Shown: piece after piece, positions 3,447 to 21,402 of the stretch | Numbering within the stretch: the stretch's first letter is position 1 | Layout of the letters: every line of letters begins with the position of its first letter | From: Kiloniellales bacterium | GTDB taxonomy: Bacteria; Pseudomonadota; Alphaproteobacteria; Kiloniellales; JAKSDN01 | Direction: 5' to 3' | DNA length: 22,409 nucleotides | NCBI GenBank assembly: GCA_022360075.1 | Contig: JAKSDN010000932.1 | Coordinates: 1-22,409 of the forward strand | Notes under the pieces: model-generated | Database searches by the model: none | Told to the model about the DNA's origin: nothing | Seen by the model: only the letters and a program-made list of their open reading frames with translations | Made by a program: the position numbers and the translations under genes

Positions 3447-5939
3447 GTGACCGATTCGATGCTCATGCGGGCCGCGCCAACGGCTCTGCCCGATCCCTTG
3501 CCGCCGCGCTTCCAATCCTGGTTCGCGGCCCGGGGCTGGGCACCGCACGCCCATCAGCTGGCCATCCTGGAGGCGGCGCGCGACGGCGACTCGGCCCTGC
3601 TGATCGCACCGACCGGCGGCGGCAAGACGCTGGCCGGCTTTCTGCCCAGCTTGGTCGAACTGGCCGCCCGCGACCCGGAGGTCCAGACCAGCGGCATTCA
3701 CACGCTCTACGTCTCGCCCCTGAAGGCGCTCGCGGTCGACATTCACCGCAACCTGACCGCGCCGATTGAGGAGCTGGACCTGGCCATCGCCTGCGAGACC
3801 CGCACCGGCGACACGCCCCAGGCCAAGCGCCAGCGCCAGCGCCGCCGGCCGCCCCAGATCCTGCTGACCACGCCCGAGTCGCTCGCGCTGCTGCTGTCCT
3901 ATCACGACTCGCCGCAGGTCTTCGCCGGGCTGTCGCGCGTGATCGTCGACGAGCTGCACGCGCTCGCCGACAACAAGCGCGGAGACCTGCTGGCGCTGGG
4001 CCTGGCGCGCCTGCGCGCGCTCGCACCCGACTGCCGCCGCATCGGCCTGTCGGCGACCGTGCCTGACCCCGACTACCTGCAAGCCTGGCTCTCCGAGAGC
4101 GGCCGGGCCGAGGACGGCTCGGTGCGGGTGATCGCGGCCGGCGGCGGCGCCGAGCCGGAAATCGACATCCTGACCACGCGCGCCCGCCTGCCCTGGTCCG
4201 GGCACATGGCGGTCCACGCCCTGGAAGAGGTCTACGAGCGCATCCGCCGGGCCGAGACCACGCTGGTCTTCGTCAACACCCGCGCCCAGGCCGAGATCGT
4301 GTTCCAGGAGCTCTGGCGCCTGAACGACGACAAGCTGGCGATCGGCCTGCACCACGGCAGCCTGGCGGCCGAGCAGCGCCGCAAGGTCGAGGCCGCCATG
4401 GCCGCGGGCCGGCTGCGCGCGGTCGTCGCCACCTCCTCGCTCGACCTGGGCATCGACTGGGCCGCGGTCGATCTGGTGATCCAAGTCGGCGCGCCCAAGG
4501 GCGTCTCGCGCCTCCTGCAGCGCCTGGGCCGCGCCAACCACCGGCTCGACCAGCCGAGCCGCGCCCTGCTCGTCCCGGCCAACCGCTTCGAGGTGCTGGA
4601 GTGCCGCGCCGCGCTCGAGGGCGTGCGGGCCGCGACCCTCGACGGCGACCCGCCCAAGCCCGGTGGCCTCGACGTGCTGGCCCAGCACATCCTCGGCATG
4701 GCTTGCGCCGGACCCTTCGATCCTAATGCACTCTACGCCGAGGTGACCTCCGCCGCGCCCTACGCCGCGCTGACCCGCCAGGATTTCGACGACACGCTCG
4801 ATTTCGTCGCCACCGGCGGCTATGCGCTGCGCAGCTACGAGCGCTACAAGCGGCTCAAGCGCGACGCCCGGGGCCGCTACCGCGTCGCCTCGCCGCACCA
4901 CGTGCAGCGCTACCGCATGAACGTCGGCACGATCGTCGAGGCGCCGACGCTCAAGGTGCGCATGCGCAACGGCCGCGTGCTGGGCGAGGTCGAAGAGTAC
5001 TTCGTGCTCGGCCTGAAGCCCGGCGACAGTTTCATCTTCGCCGGCGAGCTGCTGTGCTTCGAGGGCATCCGCGAGACCAGCCTGATCGCCAGCCGGGCGC
5101 GCGGCGGCGAGCCGCAGGTGCCGGCCTATGTCGGCGGCCGGCTGCCGCTCTCGACCCACTTGGCCGAGCGGGTGCGGGCCATGCTCGAGGACCCGAGGCG
5201 CTGGCGCGACCTGCCACCGGCGGTCGGCGAGTGGCTGCGGCTGCAACGCTGGCGCTCGGTCATGCCGCCGGCCGACGGCCTGCTGGTCGAGACCTTCCCG
5301 CGCGGCGAGAAGCAGTTCCTGGTCGCCTATTGCTTCGAGGGCCGCAACGCCCACCAGACGCTCGGCATGCTGCTGACCCGGCGCATGGAGCGCGCCGGGC
5401 TCGGGCCGCTCGGATTCGTCGCCACCGACTACGTGATCGCGGTCTGGAGCCTGCATGCGGCGCGCGATCTCGACAGCCTGTTCGACGAGGATATGCTGGG
5501 CGACGACCTGGAAGCCTGGATGGCCGAGTCCTCGATGCTGAGACGCACTTTCCGCAACGTCGCGGTGATCGCCGGCCTGATCGAGCCGCGCCATCCCGGC
5601 CAGGAGAAAAGCGGCCGCCAAGTGACCTTCAACGCCGATCTGATCTACGACGTGCTGCGCAAGCACGAGCCCGACCACATTCTGCTGCGCGCGACCCGCG
5701 CCGACGCCGCGGGCGGCCTCACCGACATCCGCCGCCTCGCCGACATGCTCGCGCGGGTCAAGGGCAAGATCCGTCACCGCGCGCTCGACCGGGTCTCGCC
5801 GCTCGCCGTGCCGATCCTGCTGGAGATCGGCAAGGAGCAGGTCTATGGCGCGGCGCTCGACGAGCTGCTCGACGAGGGCGCGCAGGCGCTGATCGCCGAG
5901 GCGACCGCCGCCGTCGCGCAGGCGGAGCTACCCATTTGA
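3447..5939 (+). CDS. lhr: Ligase-associated DEXH-box helicase (Lhr-Core)
   Basis: 830 residues, the length of Lhr-Core rather than the about 1,500-residue long Lhr. It is a superfamily 2 ATP-dependent 3'-5' translocase that unwinds DNA and RNA:DNA duplexes in DNA repair. Visible motifs: HQ at 36-37, Walker A APTGGGKT (54-61), TPES (142-145), DELH (168-171), LSAT (201-204), TSSLDLGIDW (motif V, 329-338) and QRLGRANHR (motif VI, 358-366). The Lhr winged-helix and core C-terminal region follow. The start is uncertain: GTG 3447, ATG 3459 and ATG 3465 are in frame and none has a Shine-Dalgarno sequence. TATGCT (3436-3441) ends 5 bases before the GTG, which would suit a leaderless mRNA. The 3' end overlaps pdeM by four bases. 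Function call is firm. Confidence 0.95.
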   Translation: MTDSMLMRAAPTALPDPLPPRFQSWFAARGWAPHAHQLAILEAARDGDSALLIAPTGGGKTLAGFLPSLVELAARDPEVQTSGIHTLYVSPLKALAVDIHRNLTAPIEELDLAIACETRTGDTPQAKRQRQRRRPPQILLTTPESLALLLSYHDSPQVFAGLSRVIVDELHALADNKRGDLLALGLARLRALAPDCRRIGLSATVPDPDYLQAWLSESGRAEDGSVRVIAAGGGAEPEIDILTTRARLPWSGHMAVHALEEVYERIRRAETTLVFVNTRAQAEIVFQELWRLNDDKLAIGLHHGSLAAEQRRKVEAAMAAGRLRAVVATSSLDLGIDWAAVDLVIQVGAPKGVSRLLQRLGRANHRLDQPSRALLVPANRFEVLECRAALEGVRAATLDGDPPKPGGLDVLAQHILGMACAGPFDPNALYAEVTSAAPYAALTRQDFDDTLDFVATGGYALRSYERYKRLKRDARGRYRVASPHHVQRYRMNVGTIVEAPTLKVRMRNGRVLGEVEEYFVLGLKPGDSFIFAGELLCFEGIRETSLIASRARGGEPQVPAYVGGRLPLSTHLAERVRAMLEDPRRWRDLPPAVGEWLRLQRWRSVMPPADGLLVETFPRGEKQFLVAYCFEGRNAHQTLGMLLTRRMERAGLGPLGFVATDYVIAVWSLHAARDLDSLFDEDMLGDDLEAWMAESSMLRRTFRNVAVIAGLIEPRHPGQEKSGRQVTFNADLIYDVLRKHEPDHILLRATRADAAGGLTDIRRLADMLARVKGKIRHRALDRVSPLAVPILLEIGKEQVYGAALDELLDEGAQALIAEATAAVAQAELPI

Positions 5940-6625
5940 ACGCGCCCGACAGAGCCACGCTCTCCGTCAACGGCGCCAGCCTGCTATGCGATCCCGAAGG
6001 CGTGCTGTTCTGGCCGGAACGTGAGACCCTGGTCGTCTCCGACCTGCATTTGGAGAAGGGCTCGGCCTTCGCGGTCCGGGGCCAGTTCCTGCCGCCCTAC
6101 GACACGGCGGCCACGCTGGCCCGTCTCGATACCACGCTGCGGCGCCTGCGACCGCGCCGCGTCATCTGTCTCGGCGACAGCTTTCACGACCCGGACGCGC
6201 CGGCACGGCTCTCGGACGGCGACGGCGCGACCATCCGTGCCCTGACCGCGGCCCACGACTGGATCTGGATCTGCGGCAACCACGACCCGGCCCCGCCGGA
6301 GGCTTGGGGCGGCAGGGCGGAGCAGGAGGTCGTCCTCGGCGGCCTGAGGTTCCGTCATGAGCCCTCGGATCGCGGCACTGGGACCGGCGAGATCTGCGGA
6401 CACTTCCACCCCAAGGCAACGGTCGTGACCCGCGCCAAACGGATCAGCGGCCGCTGCTTCGTGACCGACGGCCGGCGCCTGATCCTGCCGGCCTTCGGCG
6501 CCTACACCGGCGGCCTCAACGTGCTCGACCCGGCCATCGCCGGTCTGTTCAAGAAGAGCTTTCAGGTGCGGGTCTTGGGGCGGCGGAAGACCTTCGCTTT
6601 CCCGCGGGAGGCCTTGGCGTTTTGA
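5936..6625 (+). CDS. pdeM: Ligase-associated metallophosphoesterase
   Basis: 229 residues from a TTG start. PdeM-type calcineurin-like phosphoesterases are Mn2+-dependent and belong to the Lhr-Core/Exo/ligase repair set. Motifs in order: SDLHLEKG (35-42), GDSFHD (80-85), GNHD (114-117), an RFRHEP histidine (H141) and GHFHPK (155-160), which together make a complete two-metal site. The start is set by three facts: the homologous N-terminus begins here, the TTG overlaps the lhr stop as TTGA, and GGCGGAG sits 8 bases upstream inside lhr. Translation is therefore probably coupled to lhr. The open frame continues upstream through lhr, but that part is a shadow frame. Confidence 0.92.
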   Translation: MNAPDRATLSVNGASLLCDPEGVLFWPERETLVVSDLHLEKGSAFAVRGQFLPPYDTAATLARLDTTLRRLRPRRVICLGDSFHDPDAPARLSDGDGATIRALTAAHDWIWICGNHDPAPPEAWGGRAEQEVVLGGLRFRHEPSDRGTGTGEICGHFHPKATVVTRAKRISGRCFVTDGRRLILPAFGAYTGGLNVLDPAIAGLFKKSFQVRVLGRRKTFAFPREALAF

Positions 6626-6894: not shown

Positions 6895-7383
6895 TTACTG
6901 CGGCAAGATCACCGCGTCGATGACGTGGATGATGCCGTTGCTGGTCTCGATGTCGGCCATGACGACGTTGGCGCTGTCGACCATGGGGGCCTTGCCGGTG
7001 CCGTCGACCTTGGCGGTGCTGCCTTGGACGGTCGTGGCCGAGACGACCTTGTCCTTGATGTCCTCGGAAGTGACCTTACCGGGGACCACGTGATAGGTCA
7101 GGATCGCCACGAGCTGCTCCTTGTTCTCGGGCAGGAGCAGCGAGTCGAGCGTGCCTTCCGGCAGCTTGGCGAAGGCCTCGTCGGTCGGCGCGAAGACGGT
7201 GAAAGGACCTTCGCCCTTCAAGGTCTCGACCAGGCCGGCTGCCTGCACGGCCGCGACCAGGGTGTTGAACTGGCCGGCCGAGACGGCCGTGTCGACGATG
7301 TCCTTGGCCGAGGCCAAAGCCGCAGAGAAGGCGATCGGGAGCGCGACCACGGAGGCCGCGAGAAAACGCGTGACAGTTCTCAT
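6895..7383 (-). CDS. Secreted fasciclin-domain protein
   Basis: 162 residues: a Sec signal (about 1-26, ending ALASA) and a single FAS1 domain filling the rest. FAS1 hallmarks are the H1 box [11 protein letters not shown] (61-71), YHVVPG (97-102) and the H2 box [13 protein letters not shown] (149-161). Bacterial single-FAS1 proteins are periplasmic or cell-surface and of poorly known role. The start is ATG 7383, with AAGGAG 9 bases upstream; an ATG nine codons earlier has no such site. A fasciclin protein belongs to the singlet-oxygen (RpoE) response of Rhodobacter sphaeroides, as I recall it, which fits the divergent photolyase operon. A weak TGATCC/CGGT element lies about 100 bp upstream. 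Confidence 0.92.
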
Positions 7384-7485: not shown

Positions 7486-7511
7486 ACCGCAAATAGAGCC
7501 AGGCCGGATCA
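7486..7511 (-). promoter_or_regulatory. Weak ECF11-like promoter candidate for the fasciclin gene
   Basis: On the minus strand, TGATCC (7506-7511) is followed after 16 bp by CGGT (7486-7489). The -35 match to TGATCC is perfect; the -10 matches CGTA in two positions only. An overlapping sigma-70-like reading (TTGACC 7512-7517, 16 bp, TATTTG) is also possible. Confidence 0.35.
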
Positions 7512-7555: not shown

Positions 7556-7585
7556 TGATCGGCATTCGGTCCAAACGCGTATAAG
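7556..7585 (+). promoter_or_regulatory. RpoE/ChrR (ECF11)-type promoter of the photolyase operon
   Basis: TGATCG (7556-7561), a 16-bp spacer, then CGTATAAG (7578-7585). This fits the TGATCC-N16/17-CGTA pattern I recall for ECF11 sigma factors, which answer singlet oxygen through ChrR. The predicted start near 7590 gives a leader of about 170 nt that contains a 40-codon open frame. A matching element precedes the facing operon at 16635-16661. Confidence 0.6.
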
Positions 7586-7640
7586 AGGCAAAAGAAACCG
7601 CTGCCCAGGCGCCGTTCGGCTCGCTTCGAGACGCCATGGT

Positions 7641-7763
7641 ATGCAGCGAAACCGCCGACCGGGGATGAGCGTGGGCTACATGCAAGGCGACAAGAACCGA
7701 CGCGATCAGCGACAGGAAGTCCGCTCTGGCCGCGCCGAGCGCAGGTCGATCGGGGCGGGATGA
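7641..7763 (+). CDS. Possible 40-residue leader ORF coupled to the photolyase gene
   Basis: ATG 7641 opens a 40-codon frame rich in Arg and Gln whose TGA (7761-7763) overlaps the photolyase ATG as ATGA. It begins with MQRNRRPGMSVGYMQ and has no signal peptide, cysteines or recognised domain. About three quarters of the third codon positions are G or C, in line with genes here but also with random GC-rich DNA. No clear ribosome site precedes it; an internal in-frame ATG (7665) follows GACCGGGG. The argument for reality is the exact 4-bp overlap and the otherwise long leader. It may be a coupling ORF rather than a functional protein, or chance. Confidence 0.3.
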   Translation: MQRNRRPGMSVGYMQGDKNRRDQRQEVRSGRAERRSIGAG

Positions 7764-9217
7764 GCGACCCGAGCCCGAGCCTCGTCTGGTTCCGATCGGA
7801 CCTCCGCCTCGGCGACAACCCGGCCCTGACGGCCGCGGTCGCGCGCGGCGCGCCGATTCTTCCGATCTTCGTTCTGGACGATGAGACTCCCGGTCGGTGG
7901 CGGCCCGGCGGCGCGAGCCGCTGGTGGCTGCACCATAGCCTCGAGGCGCTCGCCCAGAACCTCGCCCGGCGCGGGGCACCGCTGATCCTCCGGCGCGGCG
8001 ACGCGCATCAACAGATTCGCGACGTGATCGCCGAGGGCGGCGCCGGGGCCGTGTTCTGGAACCGGCGCTACGAGCCCTCCGGCATCACGCAGGACCGCGC
8101 GGTCAAGGCCGACCTCAAGGCGCAGGGCCTCGAGGTCGAGAGCTTCGGCGCCAACCTGCTGCACGAGCCTTGGACTCTGCGCACCAAGGGCGGCAGTCCT
8201 TTCCGCGTCTTCACGCCATTTTGGAAAGCGATCCTCGAGCGCGGCGACCCCGAAAGCCCCCTGCCGGCGCCCGAGCGGCTAGCGGCGGGCCCGAAGCTCC
8301 GGAGCGATAGCCTCGATGACTGGTCGCTCCTGCCGAAGGCGCCCGACTGGTCGACGGGCCTGCGCGCAGCTTGGGCGCCGGGCGAGGTCTCGGGCCAGGC
8401 TCGTCTGCGGACCTTCTTGGACCAAAACCTTCTGGGCTACGCCGAGCAGCGCAACCTGCCCGACCGCGCCCAGACGTCGCGGCTCTCGCCGCATCTGCAT
8501 TGGGGCGAGATCAGTCCCCGGCAAGTCTGGCAATGGACCCGCGACTTCGTGCGCGACCGCGCCGATTCGAGGACCGAGGCCGACGCGATGGCTTTCTTGC
8601 GTGAGCTGGGCTGGCGCGAGTTCTCCACCCACCTGCTCTATCACTGGCCGACGCTGCCCGAGCGCGCCTGGCGCCCGGCGTTCGAGGCCATCGCCTGGTC
8701 CGAAGACGAGACGGCCTACGAGGCCTGGTGCCGGGGCCGGACCGGCTTTCCCATCGTCGACGCCGGCATGCGCGAGCTCTGGACCACGGGCTGGATGCAT
8801 AACCGCGTGCGCATGGTCGCGGCGTCCTTCCTGATCAAGGATCTGCTGATCTCCTGGCAGCAGGGCGAGGCCTGGTTCTGGGACACTCTCGTCGATGCCG
8901 ACCTGGCCAACAACGCCGCCTCCTGGCAATGGGTCGCCGGCAGCGGCGCCGATGCCGCGCCCTACTTCCGGGTCTTCAATCCCGTCCTCCAGGGCGAGAA
9001 GTTCGATCCCGAGGGCCATTACGTGCGGCGCTGGCTGCCCGAGCTCGCCGCCCTTCCCGATCGCTTCATCCATCGGCCCTGGGAAGCGCCGTCCGCGCTC
9101 CTGGCCGAGGCGGGCGTGAGCCTCGGCACGACCTATCCCCACCCCCTGGTCGATCACAGTGCGGCGCGCAAGCGCAGCCTGGCGGCCTACGAGCAAATCA
9201 AAAAGCAGGTCGCATGA
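7760..9217 (+). CDS. phr: Deoxyribodipyrimidine photolyase (CPD, class I)
   Basis: 485 residues, full length. It repairs cyclobutane pyrimidine dimers with blue light, using FADH- and an antenna chromophore. The N-terminal photolyase domain is at about 5-135 and the FAD domain at about 210-475. Signatures: TSRLSPHLHWGEISPRQV (239-256), CRGRTGFPIVDAGMR (324-338), GWMHNRVRM (344-352) and DADLANNAASWQW (379-391). The electron-transfer tryptophans of E. coli (W306, W359, W382) align at W313, W366 and W389 with identical spacing. First gene of a run with ATGA/GTGA overlaps: its stop overlaps the next start by four bases. Only a GGGGCGGG stretch serves as ribosome site. Photolyase in an RpoE-type operon agrees with R. 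sphaeroides phrA (established knowledge from memory). Confidence 0.96.
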   Translation: MSDPSPSLVWFRSDLRLGDNPALTAAVARGAPILPIFVLDDETPGRWRPGGASRWWLHHSLEALAQNLARRGAPLILRRGDAHQQIRDVIAEGGAGAVFWNRRYEPSGITQDRAVKADLKAQGLEVESFGANLLHEPWTLRTKGGSPFRVFTPFWKAILERGDPESPLPAPERLAAGPKLRSDSLDDWSLLPKAPDWSTGLRAAWAPGEVSGQARLRTFLDQNLLGYAEQRNLPDRAQTSRLSPHLHWGEISPRQVWQWTRDFVRDRADSRTEADAMAFLRELGWREFSTHLLYHWPTLPERAWRPAFEAIAWSEDETAYEAWCRGRTGFPIVDAGMRELWTTGWMHNRVRMVAASFLIKDLLISWQQGEAWFWDTLVDADLANNAASWQWVAGSGADAAPYFRVFNPVLQGEKFDPEGHYVRRWLPELAALPDRFIHRPWEAPSALLAEAGVSLGTTYPHPLVDHSAARKRSLAAYEQIKKQVA

Positions 9218-10530
9218 AGATTGCCATCGTTGGAACCGGGATCGCCGGCCTCGGCGCTGCCTGGACGCTGAACCGCGTCCATGACGTCACGCTGTATGAG
9301 TCGGCCGACTACCTCGGCGGCCACGCCAACACGGTCGAGGTCGAGGTCGGCGGCCGGCGCATTGCCGTGGACACCGGCTTCATCGTCTACAACGAGCGCA
9401 ACTACCCGAATTTGGTGCGCCTCTTCGAGCACCTCGGCGTGCCGACCGAGCCGAGCGGCATGTCCTTCGCCGCCTCGATCGACGACGGCGCCTTCGAGTA
9501 TGCCGGCTGCCTGCCCGGCCTGTTCGTGCAGAAGCGCAACGCCGTCAGGCCGCGCGCCTGGCGCATGATCCGCGACATTTTGCGCTTCTATCGCGAAGCG
9601 CCAGAGCTGCTGCGCGACGGCCGCGAAACCGAGCCGGGCATCAGTCTGGGCTGCTTCCTGGACCGGGCCGGTTATTCGAGGGCCTTCGTGCGCGACCACC
9701 TGGCACCCATGGCCGCGGCGATCTGGTCCGGCCCGCCGGGTGCGCTGCTCGATTTTCCGCTGCACAGCTTCGTGCGCTTCTTCGACAATCACGGGCTCCT
9801 GCAGGTCAAGGATCGCCCGCGCTGGCGCACGGTGACCGGCGGCAGCCGGGAGTACGTCAAGCGCCTGTCCGCGCCCTTCGCCGAAAAGGTGAGGCTCAAG
9901 ACGGCGGTGGTCGCGCTCGAGCGCGGTCCGGCTGGCGCGGTCCTGCGCGACAGCAACGGCGAGGCGGCGCACTATGACCAGGTCGTCATGGCGACCCACG
10001 CCGATCAAGCCCTGGCGATCCTCGGCAGTGCGGCCAACCCGGCCGAGCGCGCTTTGTTGGGCGCTTTCCGCTATGCCGAGAACGAGGCGATTCTGCACCA
10101 GGACACCGCCTTGATGCCCCGGCGGCGCGGCGTCTGGTCGAGCTGGAACTACATGACTCGGCCGGGTCAGTCGGATGAGCGCGCCGTCTCGGTGACCTAT
10201 TGGATGAACCGGCTTCAGAATCTCGATCTCCGCATACCGCTCTTCGTCTCGTTGAACCCCTGCCGGGAGCCGGCGCCCGAGAGCGTGCTCGGCCGCTACC
10301 GCTATCATCACCCGCAGTACGATCGGCGAGCGATCGAGGCCCAGGCGGCGCTGAACGACATCCAAGGCCAGGAGCGTGTGTGGTTCTGCGGCAGCTATTG
10401 CGGCTATGGCTTCCACGAGGACGGGCTCAAGGCCGGGCTCGCGGTGGCCGCGGCCCTGGGAGCCGAAGCGCCCTGGCCGGAGGCGCCGGCCCCCGCCGGC
10501 TGGGCGCCGCTCAAGGCGGCCGCAGAGTGA
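9214..10530 (+). CDS. FAD-dependent amine-oxidase-family oxidoreductase
   Basis: 438 residues. The N-terminal dinucleotide-binding motif is GTGIAGLGAAW (7-17), followed by E35 for the FAD ribose and GGHANT (41-46). The C-terminal FAD contact is RVWFCGSYCGYGFHEDGLKAG (around 395-415). This is the flavin amine-oxidase/desaturase family found next to DUF1365 and Cfa-like genes in many proteobacteria. Substrate amines are unlikely: the neighbours point to oxidation or desaturation of a fatty-acyl chain in membrane phospholipid (inference). In R. sphaeroides and R. palustris, enzymes named UfaD and UfaO complete furan fatty-acid synthesis; I cannot say which, if either, this corresponds to. Starts with ATGA overlap on phr and ends with GTGA overlap on the DUF1365 gene. 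Confidence 0.9.
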   Translation: MKIAIVGTGIAGLGAAWTLNRVHDVTLYESADYLGGHANTVEVEVGGRRIAVDTGFIVYNERNYPNLVRLFEHLGVPTEPSGMSFAASIDDGAFEYAGCLPGLFVQKRNAVRPRAWRMIRDILRFYREAPELLRDGRETEPGISLGCFLDRAGYSRAFVRDHLAPMAAAIWSGPPGALLDFPLHSFVRFFDNHGLLQVKDRPRWRTVTGGSREYVKRLSAPFAEKVRLKTAVVALERGPAGAVLRDSNGEAAHYDQVVMATHADQALAILGSAANPAERALLGAFRYAENEAILHQDTALMPRRRGVWSSWNYMTRPGQSDERAVSVTYWMNRLQNLDLRIPLFVSLNPCREPAPESVLGRYRYHHPQYDRRAIEAQAALNDIQGQERVWFCGSYCGYGFHEDGLKAGLAVAAALGAEAPWPEAPAPAGWAPLKAAAE

Positions 10531-11372
10531 CGGCGGGCAGGATCACGAAGATGAACCAGAGACCCACCGAGGGCGTCCCGGAATCCTGCCTCTACTTCGG
10601 CCGGGTGATGCACCGCCGGTTGCGGCCCTTCACGCATCGCTTCTCCTATCGCGTCTTCAGCTTGCTGCTCGACATCGACGCGCTGCCGCGCCTGGCGCGG
10701 CGCCTGCGGCTGTTCTCCTACAATCGCTTCAATCTCTTCAGTTTCTTCGACGGTGACCACGGCCCGCGCGATGGCAGCGCCTTGCGCCCCTGGATCGAGC
10801 GCCACCTGGCGGAAGCCGGCATCGACGCCGCGGGCGGTCCGATCCGCCTGCTGTGCTTTCCACGCGTGCTCGGCTACGTCTTCAATCCGCTCAGCCTGTG
10901 GTTCTGCTACCACCGGCAGGGCGAGCTTGCGGCGATCCTCTACGAGGTCCGCAACACTTTCGGTGAGAAGCACGGCTATCTGATCCCGGTCGCCGAGGGC
11001 GCGAGCGGGGACGGGCCCATTCTTCAACGGTGCGCCAAGGGCTTCTACGTCTCGCCCTTCCTGCCGATGGAAGGCGGCTACCGCTTTCGCTTGCGCCAGC
11101 CGGACGAGCGGCTCTCGGTGCTGATCCGCCAGCACGTCGCGGCGGGCGAGGTCCTGATCGCCACCATGACCGGACGCCGTGCGGCCCTGAGCGATCCTCG
11201 CTTGGCCCGAGCTGCCCTCGCCTATCCGCTGCTCACGCTCAAGGTGATCGCCGCGATCCACTGGGAGGCGCTGCGCCTTTGGGTCAAGGGTGCCTCTTTG
11301 CAGCGTCGGCCGAAACCCCCGACGGCCGAGGTCTCCCGGCCACTCCAACAATTCCAACAAGCAGCCGAATAG
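10527..11372 (+). CDS. DUF1365 family protein
   Basis: 281 residues from GTG 10527. DUF1365 proteins have no settled biochemical role, but nearly always sit between a flavin amine-oxidase-like gene and a Cfa-like methyltransferase gene, as here. Family features are LYFGRVMHRRLRPFTHRFSY near the N-terminus, LLCFPRVLGYVFNPLSLWFCY in the middle, EVRNTFGEKHGY, and KGFYVSPFLPMEGGYRF. The start is ambiguous. GTG 10527 overlaps the previous stop (GTGA) and has AAGGCGG 7 bases upstream; ATG 10551 has AGGA about 10 bases upstream and would give 273 residues. Probably acts with its two neighbours on membrane fatty acids (inference from constant neighbourhood). Confidence 0.9.
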   Translation: MTAGRITKMNQRPTEGVPESCLYFGRVMHRRLRPFTHRFSYRVFSLLLDIDALPRLARRLRLFSYNRFNLFSFFDGDHGPRDGSALRPWIERHLAEAGIDAAGGPIRLLCFPRVLGYVFNPLSLWFCYHRQGELAAILYEVRNTFGEKHGYLIPVAEGASGDGPILQRCAKGFYVSPFLPMEGGYRFRLRQPDERLSVLIRQHVAAGEVLIATMTGRRAALSDPRLARAALAYPLLTLKVIAAIHWEALRLWVKGASLQRRPKPPTAEVSRPLQQFQQAAE

Positions 11373-11382
11373 AGACCGGAGA

Positions 11383-12588
11383 ATGGCAAGAGAACTCCCC
11401 CTGGAACCCTACCCGGTGCCACGCCACCACGCGACGCTGCGCGCGCTCGGCCGCCGGATCCACTTCGGTCGGCTCGCCCTGCACCTGCCCGATGGCTCGG
11501 CCTGCCTTTTCGTCGGCGAGGCGCCCGGCCCGAACGCGGTTCTCTCGGTCAAGGACTCTCGCTTTCTGCGGCGCCTGCTGTTCGGCGGCGGCACCGGCTT
11601 CGGCGAGGCCTATGTCGACGGGATCTGCGACAGCCCCGACGTATCGCAGGTGGTGGCGCTGGCCTCGCGGAACTATCGGCTTTGGGAGGAGGCGCTCGAA
11701 GGCCGGCCCTTCTACAAGGCCGCGCGAAGGCTGGTCCATGCCCTGCGCCCGAACAGCAGGACCGGGGCGCGACGCAACATCGCCCGCCACTACGATCTGG
11801 GCAACGCCTTCTACGCAGCCTGGCTCGATCCCTCCATGACCTATTCCTCGGCCTTCTTCGAGGCCCCGAGCGAGAGCCTGGAATCGGCGCAGCGCAACAA
11901 ATACCGCAAGGTCGCGGAGATGGCCGAGCTACGGCCCGGCCAGCACCTGCTGGAAGTCGGCTGCGGCTGGGGCGGCTTCGCCGCCTTCGCCGCGCAGGAG
12001 ATCGGCTGCAAGGTCACGGCCATCACGCTGTCGAAGGAGCAGCATGCCTACGCCAGCCAGCGCATCCAGCAGGCCGGGCTCAGCGACCGCGTCGAGGTGC
12101 GGCGCCAGGACTATCGCGATACCGAGGGCCGCTTCGATCGGATCGCCTCGATCGAGATGTTCGAGGCGGTGGGCGAGGCCTACTGGCCGCAGTTCTTCGA
12201 CAAGCTGCGCGACAGCCTCAAGCCGGGCGGCCGGGCCGCGCTGCAGGTGATCACGATCACCGACAGCCTTTGGGAGCGCTACCGGCGCGAGGTCGACTTC
12301 ATTCAGCGCTACATCTTCCCCGGCGGCATGCTGCCGTCGCCGAGCGCGCTGCAGAGCGCGGCCAGCCGGGCCGGATTCCGCTGGCAGGGCGAAAGCTCTT
12401 TCGGCGATCACTATGCCGAGACCCTGGCGCGCTGGCGCGAGCGCTTCCTCGCGGCCTGGCCCGCGCTGGCGAACCAGGACTTCGACGAGCGCTTTCGGCG
12501 CATCTGGACCTACTACCTGAGCTACTGCGAGGGCGGCTTCCGCGAAGGGCGCATCGACGTGCGCCACGTCGCGCTCGCCCGTGAGTGA
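11383..12588 (+). CDS. Cyclopropane-fatty-acid-synthase-like SAM methyltransferase
   Basis: 401 residues. The Cfa/mycolic acid methyltransferase fold is clear: HYDLGNAFY (136-144), MTYSSAFF (152-159), SAM-binding LLEVGCGWGGFA (189-200), SIEMFEAVG (256-264) and WTYYLSYCEGGF (375-386). The enzyme should transfer a methyl group from SAM to a double bond in phospholipid acyl chains. Two bicarbonate ligands of E. coli Cfa are changed: Cys139 is Ser155 (YSS instead of YSC), and His266 is Gln288 (ALQVITI); Glu239 (E261) and Tyr317 (Y377 or Y378) are kept. This suggests methylation without ring closure, as in methylated or furan fatty-acid synthesis (UfaM-like). The open frame extends upstream to 11290; ATG 11383 is the likely start, ten bases after the DUF1365 stop. 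Confidence 0.92.
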   Translation: MARELPLEPYPVPRHHATLRALGRRIHFGRLALHLPDGSACLFVGEAPGPNAVLSVKDSRFLRRLLFGGGTGFGEAYVDGICDSPDVSQVVALASRNYRLWEEALEGRPFYKAARRLVHALRPNSRTGARRNIARHYDLGNAFYAAWLDPSMTYSSAFFEAPSESLESAQRNKYRKVAEMAELRPGQHLLEVGCGWGGFAAFAAQEIGCKVTAITLSKEQHAYASQRIQQAGLSDRVEVRRQDYRDTEGRFDRIASIEMFEAVGEAYWPQFFDKLRDSLKPGGRAALQVITITDSLWERYRREVDFIQRYIFPGGMLPSPSALQSAASRAGFRWQGESSFGDHYAETLARWRERFLAAWPALANQDFDERFRRIWTYYLSYCEGGFREGRIDVRHVALARE

Positions 12589-13939
12589 CCGCCGGGCCAG
12601 CTTGCGGAATGACGGCGGCGAGTCGGGCGCGCCCTCCCTGACCCGCCCGACCCTGCTCGCTTACGGCCTCCCCGGCCTGCCGCTGGCCGTCCTCAGCTTG
12701 CCGCTCTTCGTCTACTTGCCTGCCTTCTACGCCGAGGATGTCGGCGTCGGCTTCGCCGCGGTCGGCGTGGCGCTGCTGGTCGCGCGGATCTGGGACGTGG
12801 TGACCGATCCCCTGATCGGCGGGCTGTCGGATCGTTTCACCACGCCTTGGGGGCGCCGCCGCCCCTGGCTGGTCCTGGGCACGCCGCTGGTGGCCTTGAG
12901 CGCCTGGTTCCTGTTCCATCCGCCGGCCGAGGCCGGATGGCTCTATCTGCTTGCCTGGACGATGCTGCTCTACCTCGGCGGCACGATGATCATGCTGCCC
13001 TATCAGGCCTGGGGCGCGGAGCTCTCCGACGACTACGACGCGCGCAGCCGAATCTCGGCCTATCGCGAGGCCTTCGTGGTGATCGGCATCCTGGTCGCCA
13101 CCGGCATCCCGGCCCTGCTCGGGGCCGGAAAGGGCGAGGCGCTGACGATCCTGTCCTGGCTGCTGCTGGCGAGCCTGCCGCTCGCCGTGGCTCTTGCCTG
13201 CGGTCTGGTGCCGGACCGCGCGCGACGTTCGCCGAAGAGGCGCGATTGGCGCCGCGCGATGAAGGTCCTGCGCGAAAACCGGCCTTTCCGCCGGCTGATC
13301 GCGGCCTATTTCATCAATGGGATAGCCAATGGGCTGCCCGCGAGCCTGTTCTTGCTCTTCGTCGAAAACGTCTTGGGCGCGCCGTCATGGGCCGGACCGC
13401 TTCTCTTCGTCTACTTCCTCTGCGGCATCCTCGCCGTGCCGCTCTGGCTGCGCCTGTCCTACCGCTACGGCAAGCACCGGGTCTGGGCCCTGGCGATGGT
13501 CGCGACCTGCTTCGTCTTCGTCTGGGTGCCCTTCCTCGGTCCCGGCGACCACTGGCTCTTCGCCATCATCTGCGTGCTGACCGGCCTGGGTCTCGGCGCC
13601 GATCTGGTGCTGCCGCCGGCCATGCAGGCCGACGTCGTCGACTACGACACCCTGAAGAGCCGGCAGCGGCGCGCCGGCGTTTACTTCGGGCTCTGGGGCA
13701 TGGCGACCAAGCTCGCGCTCGCCCTGGCGGTCGGCCTCGCCTTCCCGATCCTCGAGCAGGCCGGCTTCAGCGCCGAGGCGGCCCAGCCCGCCGGCAGCCC
13801 GCCGCTGCTGGTCCTGGCCGCGCTCTACAGCCTGGCACCGGTCGGCTTCAAGCTGGCCGCGATCGGCCTGATCTGGGGTTTTCCCCTGACCCGGGCCCGC
13901 CAGGAGCGCATCCGCCGTCTGATCGAAACGCGCCAATGA
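12581..13939 (+). CDS. MFS transporter, GPH (glycoside/cation symporter) type
   Basis: 452 residues with about 12 hydrophobic segments, so an inner-membrane protein. The loop after segment 2 reads ARIWDVVTDPLIGGLSDR...WGRRRPWL (68-96), the hallmark of the GPH branch of the major facilitator superfamily, and a related QADVVDYDTLKSRQRRAG loop lies in the second half. Classical members carry sugars with Na+ or H+. In this neighbourhood a lipid or lipid-derived substrate is also possible (inference). GTG 12581 overlaps the end of the methyltransferase gene by 8 bases, so translation is probably coupled. A GPH-type transporter is part of the R. sphaeroides RpoE-controlled RSP1087-1091 group, as I recall it. 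Confidence 0.9.
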   Translation: MSDRRASLRNDGGESGAPSLTRPTLLAYGLPGLPLAVLSLPLFVYLPAFYAEDVGVGFAAVGVALLVARIWDVVTDPLIGGLSDRFTTPWGRRRPWLVLGTPLVALSAWFLFHPPAEAGWLYLLAWTMLLYLGGTMIMLPYQAWGAELSDDYDARSRISAYREAFVVIGILVATGIPALLGAGKGEALTILSWLLLASLPLAVALACGLVPDRARRSPKRRDWRRAMKVLRENRPFRRLIAAYFINGIANGLPASLFLLFVENVLGAPSWAGPLLFVYFLCGILAVPLWLRLSYRYGKHRVWALAMVATCFVFVWVPFLGPGDHWLFAIICVLTGLGLGADLVLPPAMQADVVDYDTLKSRQRRAGVYFGLWGMATKLALALAVGLAFPILEQAGFSAEAAQPAGSPPLLVLAALYSLAPVGFKLAAIGLIWGFPLTRARQERIRRLIETRQ

Positions 13940-13955
13940 GAGAGGGCTCCTCCGC

Positions 13956-14561
13956 ATGGTCCGAAGCGCGCTCGCCTTCGTATTACTCCTGTCAGTCATG
14001 GGATGCAGCGGCATGAAGCCGGAAGACTTTGCAGGCCGCGAGCCGGCGTTGTTGATCGAGGACTACTTCGCGGGCCAGACCCGGGCCTGGGGCATCTTCG
14101 AGGATCGCTTCGGCACCCTGCGCCGTCAGTTCGTCGTCGACATCGAGGGAACTTGGGACGGCGAGCGCCTGACCCTGGTCGAGGACTTCGCCTTCGCCGA
14201 CGGCGAGACCGACCGGCGCATCTGGCGTATCCGCAAGCTCGACGAGACCCGCTACGAGGGCGAGGCCGACGACGTGATCGGCAAGGCCGAAGGCGTCGCC
14301 TACGGCAATGCGCTCAACTGGCGCTACAAGCTGAACCTCAAGGTCGGCGACGGCACCTGGACGGTGAAGTTCGACGACTGGATGTTCCTGCAAGAGGACG
14401 GCGTGCTGATCAACCGGGCGAGCGTCTCCAAGCTCGGCTTCGAGATCGGCCAGGTCACAATCTTCTTTCGCAAGCTCGAAGACGAAGCCGCAGCACTGGA
14501 GGAGCCGGTGATGCTGCCGGGCGCTATGGCGCGGCTGCGATGCGGCGCTTTACCAGCCTGA
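13956..14561 (+). CDS. DUF3833 family lipoprotein
   Basis: 201 residues. A lipoprotein signal ends in SVMGC with the acylated cysteine at position 17, followed by SGMKPEDF. The mature part is a beta-rich DUF3833 domain (YFAGQTRAWGIFEDRFGTLRRQF, then GEADDVIGKAEGVAYGNALNWRY). No biochemical role is known for the family, which commonly travels with the Cfa-like, SDR and MFS genes seen here. It sits 16 bases after the transporter gene, with AGGG 9 bases before ATG 13956. The last 38 bases overlap, tail to tail, the 3' end of the NTF2-like gene on the other strand; the residues encoded there (AMARLRCGALPA) are probably not conserved. Confidence 0.88.
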   Translation: MVRSALAFVLLLSVMGCSGMKPEDFAGREPALLIEDYFAGQTRAWGIFEDRFGTLRRQFVVDIEGTWDGERLTLVEDFAFADGETDRRIWRIRKLDETRYEGEADDVIGKAEGVAYGNALNWRYKLNLKVGDGTWTVKFDDWMFLQEDGVLINRASVSKLGFEIGQVTIFFRKLEDEAAALEEPVMLPGAMARLRCGALPA

Positions 14562-14970
14562 TCAGGCTGCCCAGCAAAGGCACCCGCTCGTAGAGCTGGG
14601 AGGCAGCATCCCAGTGGTCGATGTGCTCGGCCACACGCCCTTGTGCATCGAAGCCGACCTCGGTCATGCCGTCGATGACCGCCTCGCGGCCGCCGCCCTT
14701 GCGGCGAAAAGTGAAGCGCCAGCGCAGGTAGGCGCGCTCCGCCCCGATCGCGATATCGTCGACGCGAAAGCGCGGCGCCTCGACATCCTCGAACATCTTG
14801 GCGAAGACGAGCGTCAAGGCCGCCACGCCGCGCACCTCGTTGAAGGGGTCTTTGAAGCGCACATCGGGCGCACAGAGCTCGGAAAGCTCCGGCAAGCGCT
14901 CGGGCGCGAGGGCCTCGTAGAAGTCGGCATAGGCGCGCGCTGCCGCGGCCAGATCCGGGCTTCGGCTCAC
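14524..14970 (-). CDS. NTF2-like / SnoaL-type protein
   Basis: 148 residues with an NTF2-like cone fold: N-terminal helices (ARAYADFYEAL), then the strand pattern APDVRFKDPFNEVRGV, YLRWRFTFRRKGG and a final GRVAEHIDHWDAASQLYERVPLLG, typical of the SnoaL/nuclear transport factor 2 group. Members are either small isomerase/hydratase-like enzymes or ligand-binding proteins; the reaction here is unknown. GTG 14970 overlaps the SDR stop as GTGA, so it is the last gene of the leftward operon. Its final 38 bases overlap the DUF3833 gene, leaving no room for a separate terminator. Confidence 0.88.
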   Translation of the reverse strand: MSRSPDLAAAARAYADFYEALAPERLPELSELCAPDVRFKDPFNEVRGVAALTLVFAKMFEDVEAPRFRVDDIAIGAERAYLRWRFTFRRKGGGREAVIDGMTEVGFDAQGRVAEHIDHWDAASQLYERVPLLGSLIRLVKRRIAAAP

Positions 14971-15740
14971 GTCTCAGGCACCAGCTTGCGCGTCACGGCG
15001 AAGAAGAGCGGGTGGGGCAGCAGCCGCAGGAGCTTCATCAGACAGGCGAGGCGGCGCGGAAAGACGATCTCGAAGCGGTCCGAGGCGAGCCCGCGATAGA
15101 AGGCCTCGGCCGCCGCCTCGGGCTCCATGAGGAAAGGCATGGGAAAAGGGTTGCGGTCGGTCAGCGGGGTGCGCACGAAGCCGGGATTGACGATTTGCAG
15201 GGTGATGCCCAGGGCCTCGAGCTCGGGCCTCAGCGCCTCGGCCATGTTGATCAGCCCCGCCTTGCTCGCGCCATAGCCGGCCGAGGTGGGCAGACCGGCG
15301 TAGCCGGCGACGGAGGAGACGATCGCGATCCGGCCCCGCCTGCGCCCGATCATCCGAGACAGCAGCGGCTCCAGACAATGAGCCGTGCCCATCACGTTGA
15401 GGTCCAGGAGGCTCTTGACCTTATCGGCCGCGAAATCGCGGGCCAGGATCGGCTGGTGCGTGCCGGCGTTGAGGACGGCGACGGCGATCGGTCCGACGTC
15501 GCGCTCGATCGCCGCCACGGCTTCGGTGACCGCAGCGGCGTCGGTCACGTCCAGCGGCCAGGACACGACCTTGCCGCCTTGCCCATGCGCGGCCGTGACG
15601 AGATCCTCAAGGGCGTCAGCCCGCCGCGCACTCGCCACCACTCTATCGCCACCGCGGGCGACGCGTAGCGCGAGCGCCCGTCCGAGGCCGGAGCTCGCGC
15701 CGGTGATCCAGACCGCCCCGCCGGAAGCCAGGGCCGTCAC
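14967..15740 (-). CDS. Short-chain dehydrogenase/reductase (SDR)
   Basis: 257 residues, classical SDR size. The NAD(P) motif is TGASSGLG (13-20), D64-V65 for the adenine, NAG at 91-93, the catalytic S143 and Y156-x-x-x-K160 (AGYGASKAG), and PGFVRT (186-191). The C-terminus (RRLACLMKLLRLLPHPLFFAVTRKL) is hydrophobic and basic, which may bring it to the membrane. Likely role: reduction or oxidation of a lipid-derived carbonyl or alcohol, given the operon (inference). GTG 15740 is chosen because the Rossmann fold starts right after it and GGAG lies 10 bases upstream. This start overlaps the stop of a 32-codon ORF as GTGA. The open frame upstream of 15740 has no SDR features. Confidence 0.93.
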   Translation of the reverse strand: MTALASGGAVWITGASSGLGRALALRVARGGDRVVASARRADALEDLVTAAHGQGGKVVSWPLDVTDAAAVTEAVAAIERDVGPIAVAVLNAGTHQPILARDFAADKVKSLLDLNVMGTAHCLEPLLSRMIGRRRGRIAIVSSVAGYAGLPTSAGYGASKAGLINMAEALRPELEALGITLQIVNPGFVRTPLTDRNPFPMPFLMEPEAAAEAFYRGLASDRFEIVFPRRLACLMKLLRLLPHPLFFAVTRKLVPET

Positions 15741-15835
15741 GGGTCCCCGACTCCGCGCCACCTCATGTATTCGACCGGGTCGATGGTGGGGCGGCTCAGC
15801 CCCTGACGACGCGGACCCGGTTGCGCAGCGATCAT
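15737..15835 (-). CDS. Possible 32-residue small protein between the DUF6134 and SDR genes
   Basis: ATG 15835 overlaps the DUF6134 stop by one base (TAATG), and the TGA overlaps the SDR start by four (GTGA), so the frame exactly fills the space between two operon genes. The peptide begins MIAAQPGPRRQG and ends TIDPVEYMRWRGVGDP: basic with an aromatic/Trp patch, no signal or membrane segment. About 78% of third codon positions are G or C. The double start/stop overlap is the usual sign of a coupled gene in this operon. It could instead serve only to couple translation of the SDR gene. No known family is recognised. Confidence 0.45.
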   Translation of the reverse strand: MIAAQPGPRRQGLSRPTIDPVEYMRWRGVGDP

Positions 15836-16539
15836 TAGTGTTTCGCAGCAGCCTGAGCGCGCGCGTTGGCCGACCAGCGGTCGTAGTCGATGTCGGCACC
15901 CCGCGCCTCGAAGGCGATGCGCATCAGCTCGTCTTGCGGCCCGTACCAGAGCGACAGATTGAGATCGCCCGTCATCTCGTAGCGCCGCGCCGGCACGATA
16001 CCGCTCTCCAGCGCGAGCGATTCCTCGCCGTTCGGCGCCACCGCCACCTCGAGCAGGCGGCCCTTCTGGGTATCGATCAATCGGCTCTGGCCCACGGTCG
16101 CCTTGTTCCAGTAGCTCGTCGGCAGGGTGCCGGCTGGCGCCAGGTAGCTGCCGTCCTGGTGCTCCACGCTAAGCCCTTCGTCGGTCGCCCGAACCTTGAC
16201 CCAGTAGTCGTCGCCGTCGTCGTTCGTGCGCGAGTCGAGCGCGACCAGGCGGCCGTCGCGCCAGACCTCGCGATTGCGGTGCTCGTAGCGAAACAGCGTG
16301 ATGAAGCCGATGCCGACCTTGAGATCGATCTCGATCTCGACGTGGGTCTCTTCGCCCACCTGGCTGAACTTGAGCTTGTGCACGCCGATCGGCTCCTCGT
16401 CGCGCATGACCCAGAAGCCGAGGAGCTTGTCGGCCGACTCACTGGCCGGCAGGGGCGCCGCCGTCGCCAGCACCAGAAGGGCCGTGGCGGCCGCAAGCGG
16501 GAGCCGACGGAATGAGAATTGCTGGGTCCGAGAGGTCAT
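15835..16539 (-). CDS. Secreted DUF6134-type protein
   Basis: 234 residues: a signal peptide with basic FRR and hydrophobic LPLAAATALLVLATAAP, likely cut near PASES, then a beta-rich domain (LLGFWVMRDEEPIGVHKLKFSQ, HVEIEIDLKVGIGFITLFRYEHRNREVW, DGSYLAPAGTLPTSYW). This matches what I recall of DUF6134, periplasmic proteins of unknown function. ATG 16539 is selected over the longer frame (to 16662) because AAGGTGG lies 5 bases upstream and because the predicted ECF-type promoter (16635-16661) overlaps the longer N-terminus. First gene of the leftward operon with the small ORF, SDR and NTF2-like genes. Confidence 0.85.
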   Translation of the reverse strand: MTSRTQQFSFRRLPLAAATALLVLATAAPLPASESADKLLGFWVMRDEEPIGVHKLKFSQVGEETHVEIEIDLKVGIGFITLFRYEHRNREVWRDGRLVALDSRTNDDGDDYWVKVRATDEGLSVEHQDGSYLAPAGTLPTSYWNKATVGQSRLIDTQKGRLLEVAVAPNGEESLALESGIVPARRYEMTGDLNLSLWYGPQDELMRIAFEARGADIDYDRWSANARAQAAAKH

Positions 16540-16634
16540 CAACGCCACCTTTTCGAGTGTCCCCTGTTCCGGGTCGGGCCTCGGCGATCCCACGACCTCG
16601 TTCGTCGGCACGATCCTGGCCCCCTCCATGCTTT

Positions 16635-16661
16635 TACGCTGAATCCACAGCCTTCGGATCA
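16635..16661 (-). promoter_or_regulatory. RpoE/ChrR (ECF11)-type promoter of the DUF6134-SDR-NTF2 operon
   Basis: On the minus strand a perfect TGATCC (16656-16661), 17 bp, then CGTAAAA (CGTA at 16635-16638). It is the counterpart of the element before the photolyase operon. Predicted start near 16627 gives a leader of about 85-90 nt to ATG 16539. Confidence 0.65.
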
Positions 16662-16818: not shown

Positions 16819-18813
16819 ATGAGCAATTCCAATAGGACGTTCACCGTTCGTACCTACGAGGAAACGGACGACATCCCGAGCAACCCGACGTCCAACCCGA
16901 CGCTCGGCGACATCATCAACCAGCGTCTCGGCCGCCGCGGCTTCCTGCGCGGCGCCTTGGCGACGACCGCGATCACGGCTGCCTATGGCCCGCTGCTGAT
17001 GGGTGCGAGCCGCGAGGCCCTGGCCGTGGGCACAGAACACAAGTTCGAGGAGATCAGCCACGGCGTCGACGAGACCCATCACGTGGCAAAAGGCTATGAG
17101 GCCGACGTGCTGATCCGCTGGGGCGACCCGGTCATGTCCGACGCGCCGGCCTTCGATCCGCGCAAGCAGACGGCCGCGGCTCAGGAGAAGCAGTTCGGCT
17201 ACAACAACGACTTCATCGGCTACCTGCCGCTGCCGGCGGGTTCGGACAGCTCCGACCACGGGCTGCTCTGCATCAATCACGAGTACACCAACGAGGAGGT
17301 CATGTTCCCCGGCATCGAGCGCCAGGACCGCGACCTCCAGTTCGCCGATATGACCAAGGAGATGGTCGACATCGAGTTGGCCGCCCACGGCAACTCGATC
17401 ATCGAGGTCAAGCGGGAGTCTGGCGGCAAGTGGCAGGTCGTGCCCGACAGCAAATACGCCCGGCGCATCTCCATGCTCTCGACCGAGATGAGCATTTCGG
17501 GTCCGGCGGCCGGCCACACGCGCATGAAGACCAATGCCGATCCCAGCGGCACACGAGTCGTCGGCACGCTGAACAACTGCGCCGGCGGCATGACGCCCTG
17601 GGGCACCTACCTGACGGCCGAGGAGAACTTCCACGGCTACTTCTGGGGCGACCCGGAAGGCCATGCCGAGGCGCGCAATTTCGGACGCTACGGCGTGCCC
17701 GGCCGCTGGTACGCCTGGGGCAAGTACCACGATCGCTTCGACATCAACAAGGAGCCCAACGAGGCGAACCGCTTCGGCTGGATCGTCGAGATCGATCCGC
17801 TCGATCCGGCCTCGACGCCGGTCAAGCGCACGGCGCTGGGCCGCTTCAAGCACGAGGGCGCCGAGTCGATCGTCAACAAGGATGGCCGCGTCGTGATCTA
17901 CAGCGGCGACGACCAGCGCTTCGACTATCTCTACAAGTTCGTCACCGATGGGCGCTTCGACCCGGAGAACCCGGCGGCCAACAAGGACCTGCTCGACAGC
18001 GGCACGCTCTACGTCGCCCGCTTCGATGCCGACGGCTCGCTCGCGTGGCTGCCGCTGGTCTTCGGCCAGGGTCCGCTCACGCCGGAGAACGACTTCGAGA
18101 GCCAGGCCGAAGTGCTGATCGAGACCCGCCGGGCGGCCGACCTCTTGGGGGCGACCCCGATGGACCGGCCGGAGGACGTGGAGGCGAGCAAGTTCTCCAA
18201 CAAGGTCTACGTGATGCTGACCAACAACTCGAAGCGCAAGCAGGAGCAGGTCGACGCGGCCAACCCGCGGGCCGAGAACCTCTTCGGCCACATCGTCGAG
18301 CTCAGCCCGACCGACGACGACCATGGCGCCGATTCGGGCAAGTGGGAGATCCTGGTCAAGTGCGGCGACCCGAGCGTCGCCGAAGTCGGCGCGCAGTGGA
18401 ATCCGGCGACTTCGGAGAACGGCTGGTTCGCCGCGCCGGACAATTGCGCGATCGATAATCGCGGTAACCTATGGATCTCCACCGACCAGGGCGCCGGCTG
18501 GTCGCTGAGCGGCACCTGCGACGGCCTCTGGGCGCTCGAGACCGAAGGCGAGAAGCGCGGCACCGGCAAGATGTTCTTCCGCACGCCGGTCGGCGCCGAG
18601 CTCTGCGGCCCGCGCTTCACGCCGGACGACCGCACGCTCTTCGTCGCCGTGCAGCATCCCGCGGTCGACGGCGTCAGGGCGCTCGAGGGCTTCGAGAAGC
18701 GTTCGACCTTCGACGACCCGGCGACCCGCTGGCCGGACTTCGACGACAACATGCCGCCACGGCCTTCGATCGTGGTCATCACCAAGACCGACGGCGGCCC
18801 CATCGGCACCTGA
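16819..18813 (+). CDS. phoX: PhoX-family alkaline phosphatase, Tat-exported
   Basis: 664 residues, the usual length. PhoX releases phosphate from organic phosphoesters in the periplasm and uses Fe3+ and Ca2+. The Tat motif GRRGFLRGA (38-46) is followed by a hydrophobic stretch and a likely cleavage near REALA (65-69); the 37-residue N-region before the arginines is long, as is common in PhoX. The body is a DUF839/PhoX beta-propeller: LLCINHEYTNEE, NNCAGGMTPWGTYLTAEENFHGYF, IYSGDDQRFDYLYKFV, and GNLWISTDQG near the C-terminus. ATG 16819 follows AAGAGGAGG by 4 bases. A strong Pho box is upstream and two hairpins close the gene, so it is monocistronic and probably PhoB-controlled. Some DUF839 proteins lack proven phosphatase activity. 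Confidence 0.92.
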   Translation: MSNSNRTFTVRTYEETDDIPSNPTSNPTLGDIINQRLGRRGFLRGALATTAITAAYGPLLMGASREALAVGTEHKFEEISHGVDETHHVAKGYEADVLIRWGDPVMSDAPAFDPRKQTAAAQEKQFGYNNDFIGYLPLPAGSDSSDHGLLCINHEYTNEEVMFPGIERQDRDLQFADMTKEMVDIELAAHGNSIIEVKRESGGKWQVVPDSKYARRISMLSTEMSISGPAAGHTRMKTNADPSGTRVVGTLNNCAGGMTPWGTYLTAEENFHGYFWGDPEGHAEARNFGRYGVPGRWYAWGKYHDRFDINKEPNEANRFGWIVEIDPLDPASTPVKRTALGRFKHEGAESIVNKDGRVVIYSGDDQRFDYLYKFVTDGRFDPENPAANKDLLDSGTLYVARFDADGSLAWLPLVFGQGPLTPENDFESQAEVLIETRRAADLLGATPMDRPEDVEASKFSNKVYVMLTNNSKRKQEQVDAANPRAENLFGHIVELSPTDDDHGADSGKWEILVKCGDPSVAEVGAQWNPATSENGWFAAPDNCAIDNRGNLWISTDQGAGWSLSGTCDGLWALETEGEKRGTGKMFFRTPVGAELCGPRFTPDDRTLFVAVQHPAVDGVRALEGFEKRSTFDDPATRWPDFDDNMPPRPSIVVITKTDGGPIGT

Positions 18814-20090: not shown

Positions 20091-20116
20091 GGCCCCTCCT
20101 CCTCGTCTCGTTCCTG

Positions 20117-21301: not shown

Positions 21302-21363
21302 GCTGGAGGCCCCTCCTCATGGCGGGCTTGCTTGCCCCTAGATGCATCCACGGTTAGCATAAA

Positions 21364-21386
21364 TCAAATCGATAATACTGATGTGA
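21364..21386. promoter_or_regulatory. Candidate LysR operator between phnW and its regulator
   Basis: Interrupted dyad TCAxATC-N9-GATxTGA; its core ATC-N9-GAT (21368-21382) satisfies the T-N11-A rule for LysR-type binding sites. The site covers GATAAT (21371-21376), a plausible -10 for the regulator gene, so autorepression is likely. On the other strand TATGCT (21356-21361) is a possible phnW -10. Confidence 0.6.
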
Positions 21387-21402
21387 AATATAGGTGAAGA
21401 CG

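Follow-up and report, generated by a model that had tools for sequence, protein, structure and literature searches.

Two operons run toward each other in a 22,409-nucleotide stretch of DNA from a Kiloniellales bacterium (contig JAKSDN010000932.1; the whole stretch is called the window below), and the locus raises the question of whether they belong to one system and, if so, what the less familiar of the two contributes. The answer we favor, with a probability of roughly 70%, is that they form a single singlet-oxygen island of the ECF11 (RpoE-ChrR) type, which joins an operon for furan fatty acid (ufa) synthesis to an operon headed by a DUF6134 gene and includes an accessory envelope set that would handle oxidised lipids. 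The rightward ufa operon is the known part, and the leftward DUF6134 operon is the new one, a conserved branch for which no report was found; a literature search confined to open-licence papers found none naming the DUF6134 family. The two operons comprise the following features.

7556..7581, + strand: ECF11-type promoter of the photolyase-ufa operon, TGATCG-N16-CGTA, 9/10 consensus positions, 1 mismatch
7760..9217, + strand: class I DNA photolyase, PhrA-like (Pfam PF03441, PF00875)
9214..10530, + strand: UfaD-like flavin desaturase of the amine oxidase fold (PF01593), gene order as in RPA2571-2569
10551..11372, + strand: UfaO family (DUF1365), putative furan-forming oxygenase (PF07103, 287 bits)
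11383..12588, + strand: UfaM-like S-adenosylmethionine-dependent fatty acyl methylase of the Cfa/CMAS family (PF02353, 303 bits)
12581..13939, + strand: MFS_2/GPH transporter (Pfam), closer to MFSD2A than to MelB
13956..14561, + strand: DUF3833 lipoprotein (PF12915), predicted nitrobindin/fatty-acid-binding-protein-like barrel
14524..14970, - strand: SnoaL/NTF2-like protein (PF12680)
14967..15740, - strand: short-chain dehydrogenase/reductase (SDR; PF00106)
15737..15835, - strand: 32-residue open reading frame without a counterpart found in relatives
15835..16539, - strand: DUF6134 protein with a signal-peptide-like start (PF19630), predicted EipB-like spiral beta-barrel
16635..16661, - strand: ECF11-type promoter of the DUF6134 operon, TGATCC-N17-CGTA, 10/10 positions, 0 mismatches

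Pfam scans agree with the gene list given by an initial annotation of this DNA, except for the 32-residue reading frame, which had been counted as an operon member. The frame is not conserved: tblastn against the 12 relatives with a DUF6134-SDR spacer of more than 20 bp gave a best E-value of 0.037 over 8 residues, and in 26 of the 43 relatives where the SDR gene stands close behind DUF6134 both genes overlap or touch. It is most likely a spacer and not a gene. The operons do meet without a gap, as had been claimed, since the DUF3833 gene (ending at 14561) and the SnoaL/NTF2-like gene (ending at 14524) overlap tail to tail by 38 bp. Within the rightward operon, the photolyase and ufaD genes share an ATGA at 9214-9217, and the ufaM and GPH transporter genes overlap at 12581-12588.

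The evidence that the operons form one regulon comes first from their promoters. The ECF11 consensus is TGATCC-N16-CGTA, and the corresponding core regulon has eight genes (PMC5507510, Table 2). Both TGATC[C/G]-N16/17-CGTA elements of the initial annotation are real, with one mismatch and none to this consensus. A search of the window for TGATC followed by 16 or 17 bases and CGTA returned one match (7556, +) against 0.12 expected; the second site, where 18 bases follow TGATC, lies outside what this pattern can match. With two mismatches allowed, the window holds 21 matches against 13.6 expected at N16 and 14 against 13.8 at N17. Taken alone, the two sites are only modestly unusual, and they become convincing because relatives keep them. 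A DUF6134 profile search confirmed 89 candidates, from which 80 loci were kept, mostly titled as alphaproteobacteria. Pelagibius litoralis DSM 21314 and Tistrella mobilis are among the carriers of DUF6134. The promoter scan covered the window and 78 of these loci (n=79; L040 and L080 were left out for short flanks), taking 410 bp around each DUF6134 start (350 before, 60 inside) and accepting sites whose spacer is 15 to 17 long and which match the consensus at 9 or all 10 positions. Of the 79 loci, 41 have such a site and 24 a perfect one; the rates in random stretches taken from these loci are 3.6% and 1.0%, respectively. The spacing is almost fixed, with 38 sites at 16, three at 17 and none or one at every other length from 10 to 22; for 195 permuted motifs the number of matches averaged 0.5 and peaked at 7. 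After similar proteins were thinned, the site was retained in 26 of 49 loci. The photolyase likewise has an upstream site of at least 9 in 17 of 19 regions, the window included (control 4.7%), and ufaD has one in 13 of 24, several of the site-less ufaD genes standing behind a photolyase (L030, L040, L046, L058, L070, L079 and the window). The presence of ECF11-type sites upstream of both operons and in relatives supports the original placement of both in one regulon, and the two operons are probably ECF11 targets. The window's own DUF6134 site has the rare 17-bp spacer.

DUF6134 also keeps the company of the ufa genes in relatives. These genes lie within 9.5 kb of it in 27 of the 80 loci and face it in 25 of the 27, with both a GPH-type transporter and a DUF3833 gene in 16 of them and one of the two in a further five. 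Fifteen other loci have a photolyase that faces DUF6134 from no more than 2.5 kb away. Within 9.5 kb, DPRP (PF04244), a second photolyase-related type, is present in 16 of the 80 loci, the SDR gene in 59 and a SnoaL/NTF2-like gene in 35. When ufa genes, photolyase, DPRP, chrR, rpoE, GPH transporter and DUF3833 are all counted as partners, 48 of the 54 loci with ample flanks have at least one (66/80 over all). In 11 of the 80 loci rpoE, chrR and ufa genes are all found within 9.5 kb (L004, L006, L008, L012, L013, L018, L019, L021, L022, L049, L069), and in four others a chrR-like gene stands directly before DUF6134 on the same strand (L058, L070, L079, L080). The locus closest to the window in gene order, L030, repeats its arrangement from phoX to the fasciclin gene but has no called NTF2-like gene, and the ChrR match above cut-off in its genome sits on another contig. 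A DPRP-type gene was seen directly behind DUF6134, before the SDR gene, in L035, L037, L041, L043, L045, L048, L050, L055, L059, L061, L064 and L066.

The co-occurrence of these families across genomes, which the initial annotation had named as a check, was also found. In 289 alphaproteobacterial-class genomes drawn around that of L030, with kinship uncorrected, DUF6134 occurs in 127, DUF1365 in 153 and ChrR above cut-off in 114. Where ChrR and DUF1365 are both present, 84 of 109 genomes have DUF6134; the figure is 2 of 5 with ChrR only and 19 of 44 with DUF1365 only, versus 22 of 131 with neither. Among the matches listed, 28 genomes have it no more than 10 kb from ChrR, 8 of them within 1 kb start to start. 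ChrR is found in 19 of 20 DUF6134-bearing relatives, and a second set of 18 genomes, selected mainly for having DUF6134 apart from the ufa genes and sharing four genomes with the first, has DUF1365 in 17 and ChrR in 17. Because it is found alongside the same stress switch in so many relatives, DUF6134 looks like an overlooked part of the singlet-oxygen response. The regulatory claim is well backed by this comparative evidence, and the biochemical role of the DUF6134 branch is put forward as a proposal.

The rightward operon appears to be a known kind of system, since its families, gene order and promoter consensus match published ufa and ECF11 work, and in these respects it corresponds to the known ECF11 (RpoE-ChrR) singlet-oxygen regulon. 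In Rhodobacter sphaeroides UfaM (RSP2144), UfaD (RSP1091) and UfaO (RSP1090, a DUF1365 protein) make a methylated furan fatty acid from the cis-vaccenoyl chains of phospholipids, and RPA2569-2571 carry out the same conversion in Rhodopseudomonas palustris and suffice for furan fatty acids (PMC7380195). DUF1365 can therefore no longer be listed among the families without a biochemical role, where it had been placed. The window has linked genes for a Cfa-type methylase, a flavin oxidase and a DUF1365 protein in the order of the published ufa loci (PMC7380195); the solved structure nearest to the UfaD-like protein is LkcE (6f7l, 190.8 bits). The ufaM, ufaD and ufaO assignments are probable ones, made from families and gene order and not from comparison with the RSP2144, RSP1091 and RSP1090 or R. 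palustris sequences. Phospholipids are the substrate on which furan fatty acids are built, and exposure to singlet oxygen makes these chains disappear (PMC7380195). The shared phospholipid acyl-chain pathway of the initial annotation stands in this form; its view of the modification as one that follows photo-oxidation does not, as the furan chains are built on intact phospholipids and vanish afterwards.

The last two genes of the rightward operon appear to concern lipids as well. The closest solved relative of the transporter is the lysophosphatidylcholine symporter MFSD2A, with 108.6 bits against 47.4 for MelB in the single sequence and 194 against 102 for a profile of the 27-member family. 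MelB Asp19 and Asp124, which we take to be its sugar-binding residues, are replaced in the window protein by Ala36 (Ala in at least 90% of the 27 sequences) and Met138; a second Asp pair is presumably the cation site. With residue roles assigned in this way, the alignment retains the cation-site pair and lacks the sugar-site pair of GPH/MelB sugar symporters. Unlike MFSD2A, the protein is bacterial and belongs to a stress operon, and its candidate substrate would be a lysophospholipid; the comparison provides a bacterial candidate gene for lysolipid transport. The model of the DUF3833 protein (mean predicted local distance difference test, pLDDT, 87.5) matches nitrobindin and fatty-acid-binding barrels, and its Cys17 is nearly invariant among relatives. 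Loci titled Pelagibius, Kiloniellales and Stella have genes for a GPH transporter, a DUF3833 lipoprotein and an SDR along with their ufa genes, and RSP_1088 is probably itself a DUF3833 protein.

In the mechanism proposed, the photolyase would mend DNA damage, and UfaM, UfaD and UfaO would turn cis-vaccenoyl phospholipid chains into the methylated furan fatty acid that is lost under singlet oxygen, by activities shown elsewhere for their families. The DUF6134, SDR and SnoaL/NTF2-like operon would answer to the same type of sigma factor, and its products, together with the MFSD2A-like transporter and DUF3833, would most likely make up an envelope set for binding, moving and detoxifying oxidised acyl chains or lysophospholipids, as their folds and gene company suggest. 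Furans oxidise to reactive ene-diones, which the SDR could reduce. Work on how bacteria respond to singlet oxygen uses the ECF11 regulon as a model, in which the step from a membrane lipid to ChrR breakdown is a gap; DUF6134, widely conserved, predicted to be secreted, carrying the same promoter type and often near chrR and the genes for furan lipids, makes a concrete candidate for one of its missing components. Furan fatty acids are needed for ChrR turnover under singlet oxygen (PMC6852236), and DegS and RseP homologues promote ChrR proteolysis, a link to RSP_1090/1091 being left open (PMC3818230). DUF6134 might even act as an envelope sensor or lipid carrier that binds furan-lipid oxidation products in the periplasm and, much as RseB does in the sigma-E path of E. 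coli, ties their appearance to DegS/RseP-type ChrR proteolysis, with the MFSD2A-like transporter and DUF3833 serving the same lipid traffic, but this more specific role is a long shot.

A number of observations weigh against the island as proposed. First, a profile search across the whole 22-kb window found no rpoE-chrR pair, and no rpoE was seen beside the chrR-like gene in L058, L070, L079 and L080. Next, 38 of the 79 DUF6134 loci have no site of at least 9, the best site before DUF6134 in L030 reaches only 7/10, and six of the 54 well-flanked loci have no listed partner (L028, L072, L075-L078), although the genomes of L028, L072, L075 and L078 have ChrR and DUF1365 elsewhere. The 22 genomes with DUF6134 but neither ChrR nor DUF1365 also count here, as does Caulobacter, the control genome, which has ChrR and DUF1365 matches and no DUF6134 match, so that DUF6134 is not universal in the regulon. 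The likeness of the DUF6134 and DUF3833 models to barrel proteins is one of fold only, and a fold shows no function. Finally, the fatty acid profile did not change when RSP1089, RSP1088 or RSP1087 was deleted in frame (PMC7380195), and RSP_1091 and RSP_1090 alone brought back singlet-oxygen resistance in R. sphaeroides (PMC3818230), which makes the accessory genes of that organism dispensable as assayed. While the second result speaks against a large accessory role in R. sphaeroides, a handling role of these genes fits the unchanged profiles.

The alternative that survives best, although we consider it doubtful, is that DUF6134 is a general envelope-integrity factor, such as an EipB-like chaperone or an aid to lipoprotein or outer-membrane assembly, which came under ECF11 control by chance and has no furan fatty acid role. 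The DUF6134 model (pLDDT 87.2) has fold matches that include the EipB spiral beta-barrel, and this predicted fold would be common to DUF6134 and Brucella EipB (DUF1849); in gene company, however, DUF6134 is unlike both EipB and the LolA/LolB/RseB-like barrels. DUF1849 is absent from the 18 Pfam families matched at E-values up to 1 by 30 DUF6134 proteins, and the close ties of DUF6134 to ufa genes and photolyases argue against a general role. It is improbable that the Cfa-like gene encodes an ordinary cyclopropane synthase and that the island makes cyclopropane instead of furan fatty acids: the best NCBIfam model for the protein is indeed a cyclopropane synthase, far below its cut-off (272/400 bits), but the gene is directly linked to ufaD and ufaO, and the three are arranged like RPA2571-2569, a set that is enough to make furan fatty acids (PMC7380195). 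That the operons are neighbors by chance or through a shared island history, and not one regulon, is very improbable, since the promoter is conserved at a fixed spacing, the facing order recurs in 25 loci and the families co-occur where unlinked, even though many genomes keep DUF6134 and DUF1365 apart (within 15 kb in 55 of 103 genomes with both, among the matches listed) and loose chance promoter-like sites are common in the window.

The singlet-oxygen island has relatives among described systems. The likeness to the R. sphaeroides ECF11 sigma-E/ChrR regulon, noted from the outset, extends to the photolyase, the UfaM-, UfaD- and UfaO-type genes, the GPH-type transporter, the SDR, the lipoprotein, a fasciclin neighbor and the ECF11-type promoter; six of the eight core genes (PMC5507510, Table 2) have a like-annotated gene in the window, the exceptions being rpoE and chrR. 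The RpoE regulon of Table 1 in PMC7074977 lists the RSP1087-1091 genes, phrA, cfaS and the fasciclin gene RSP_1409. Unlike R. sphaeroides, the window has ufaM and the photolyase in one operon with ufaD and ufaO, has no rpoE-chrR within its bounds, and adds a facing operon with DUF6134 and SnoaL/NTF2-like genes. R. palustris RPA2571-2569 likewise form one ufaD-ufaO-ufaM run, to which the window adds the photolyase, the transporter, DUF3833 and the facing operon. Pseudomonas syringae PSPTO_1121-1114 is a photolyase-led operon with an SDR, UfaD-, UfaO- and Cfa-type genes and a TGATCC-N16-CGTA-type site, and the extract available mentions no facing DUF6134 operon. In Chlamydomonas CFA1, CFA2, a DUF1365 gene and the fasciclin-like FAS2 are strongly singlet-oxygen-induced, SAK1 being needed (PMC4067076, Table 5), and SDR genes are induced as well (Table 3); this mix resembles that of the island, but in a eukaryote with another regulator, and the parallel is one of annotation.

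Two genes flank the operons directly.

6895..7383, - strand: fasciclin-domain protein, RSP_1409-like by annotation (PF02469)
16819..18813, + strand: PhoX alkaline phosphatase (Pfam scan), adjoining DUF6134

The best site of the fasciclin gene, TGATCC-N16-CGGT at 7486-7511, matches 8/10 positions, and an ECF11 site of its own is uncertain. PhoX also adjoins DUF6134 in four of the 80 loci (L030, L037, L038, L062). Farther out, the region 19239-22272 holds an aminotransferase class V gene (20120-21301, - strand), a LysR gene and a HAD-like reading frame, a group that we take to serve 2-aminoethylphosphonate use (PhnW/PhnX). At 3447-6625 (+ strand) an Lhr-type DEAD helicase gene is followed by a phosphoesterase-like reading frame, presumably resembling a ligase-associated DNA repair set.

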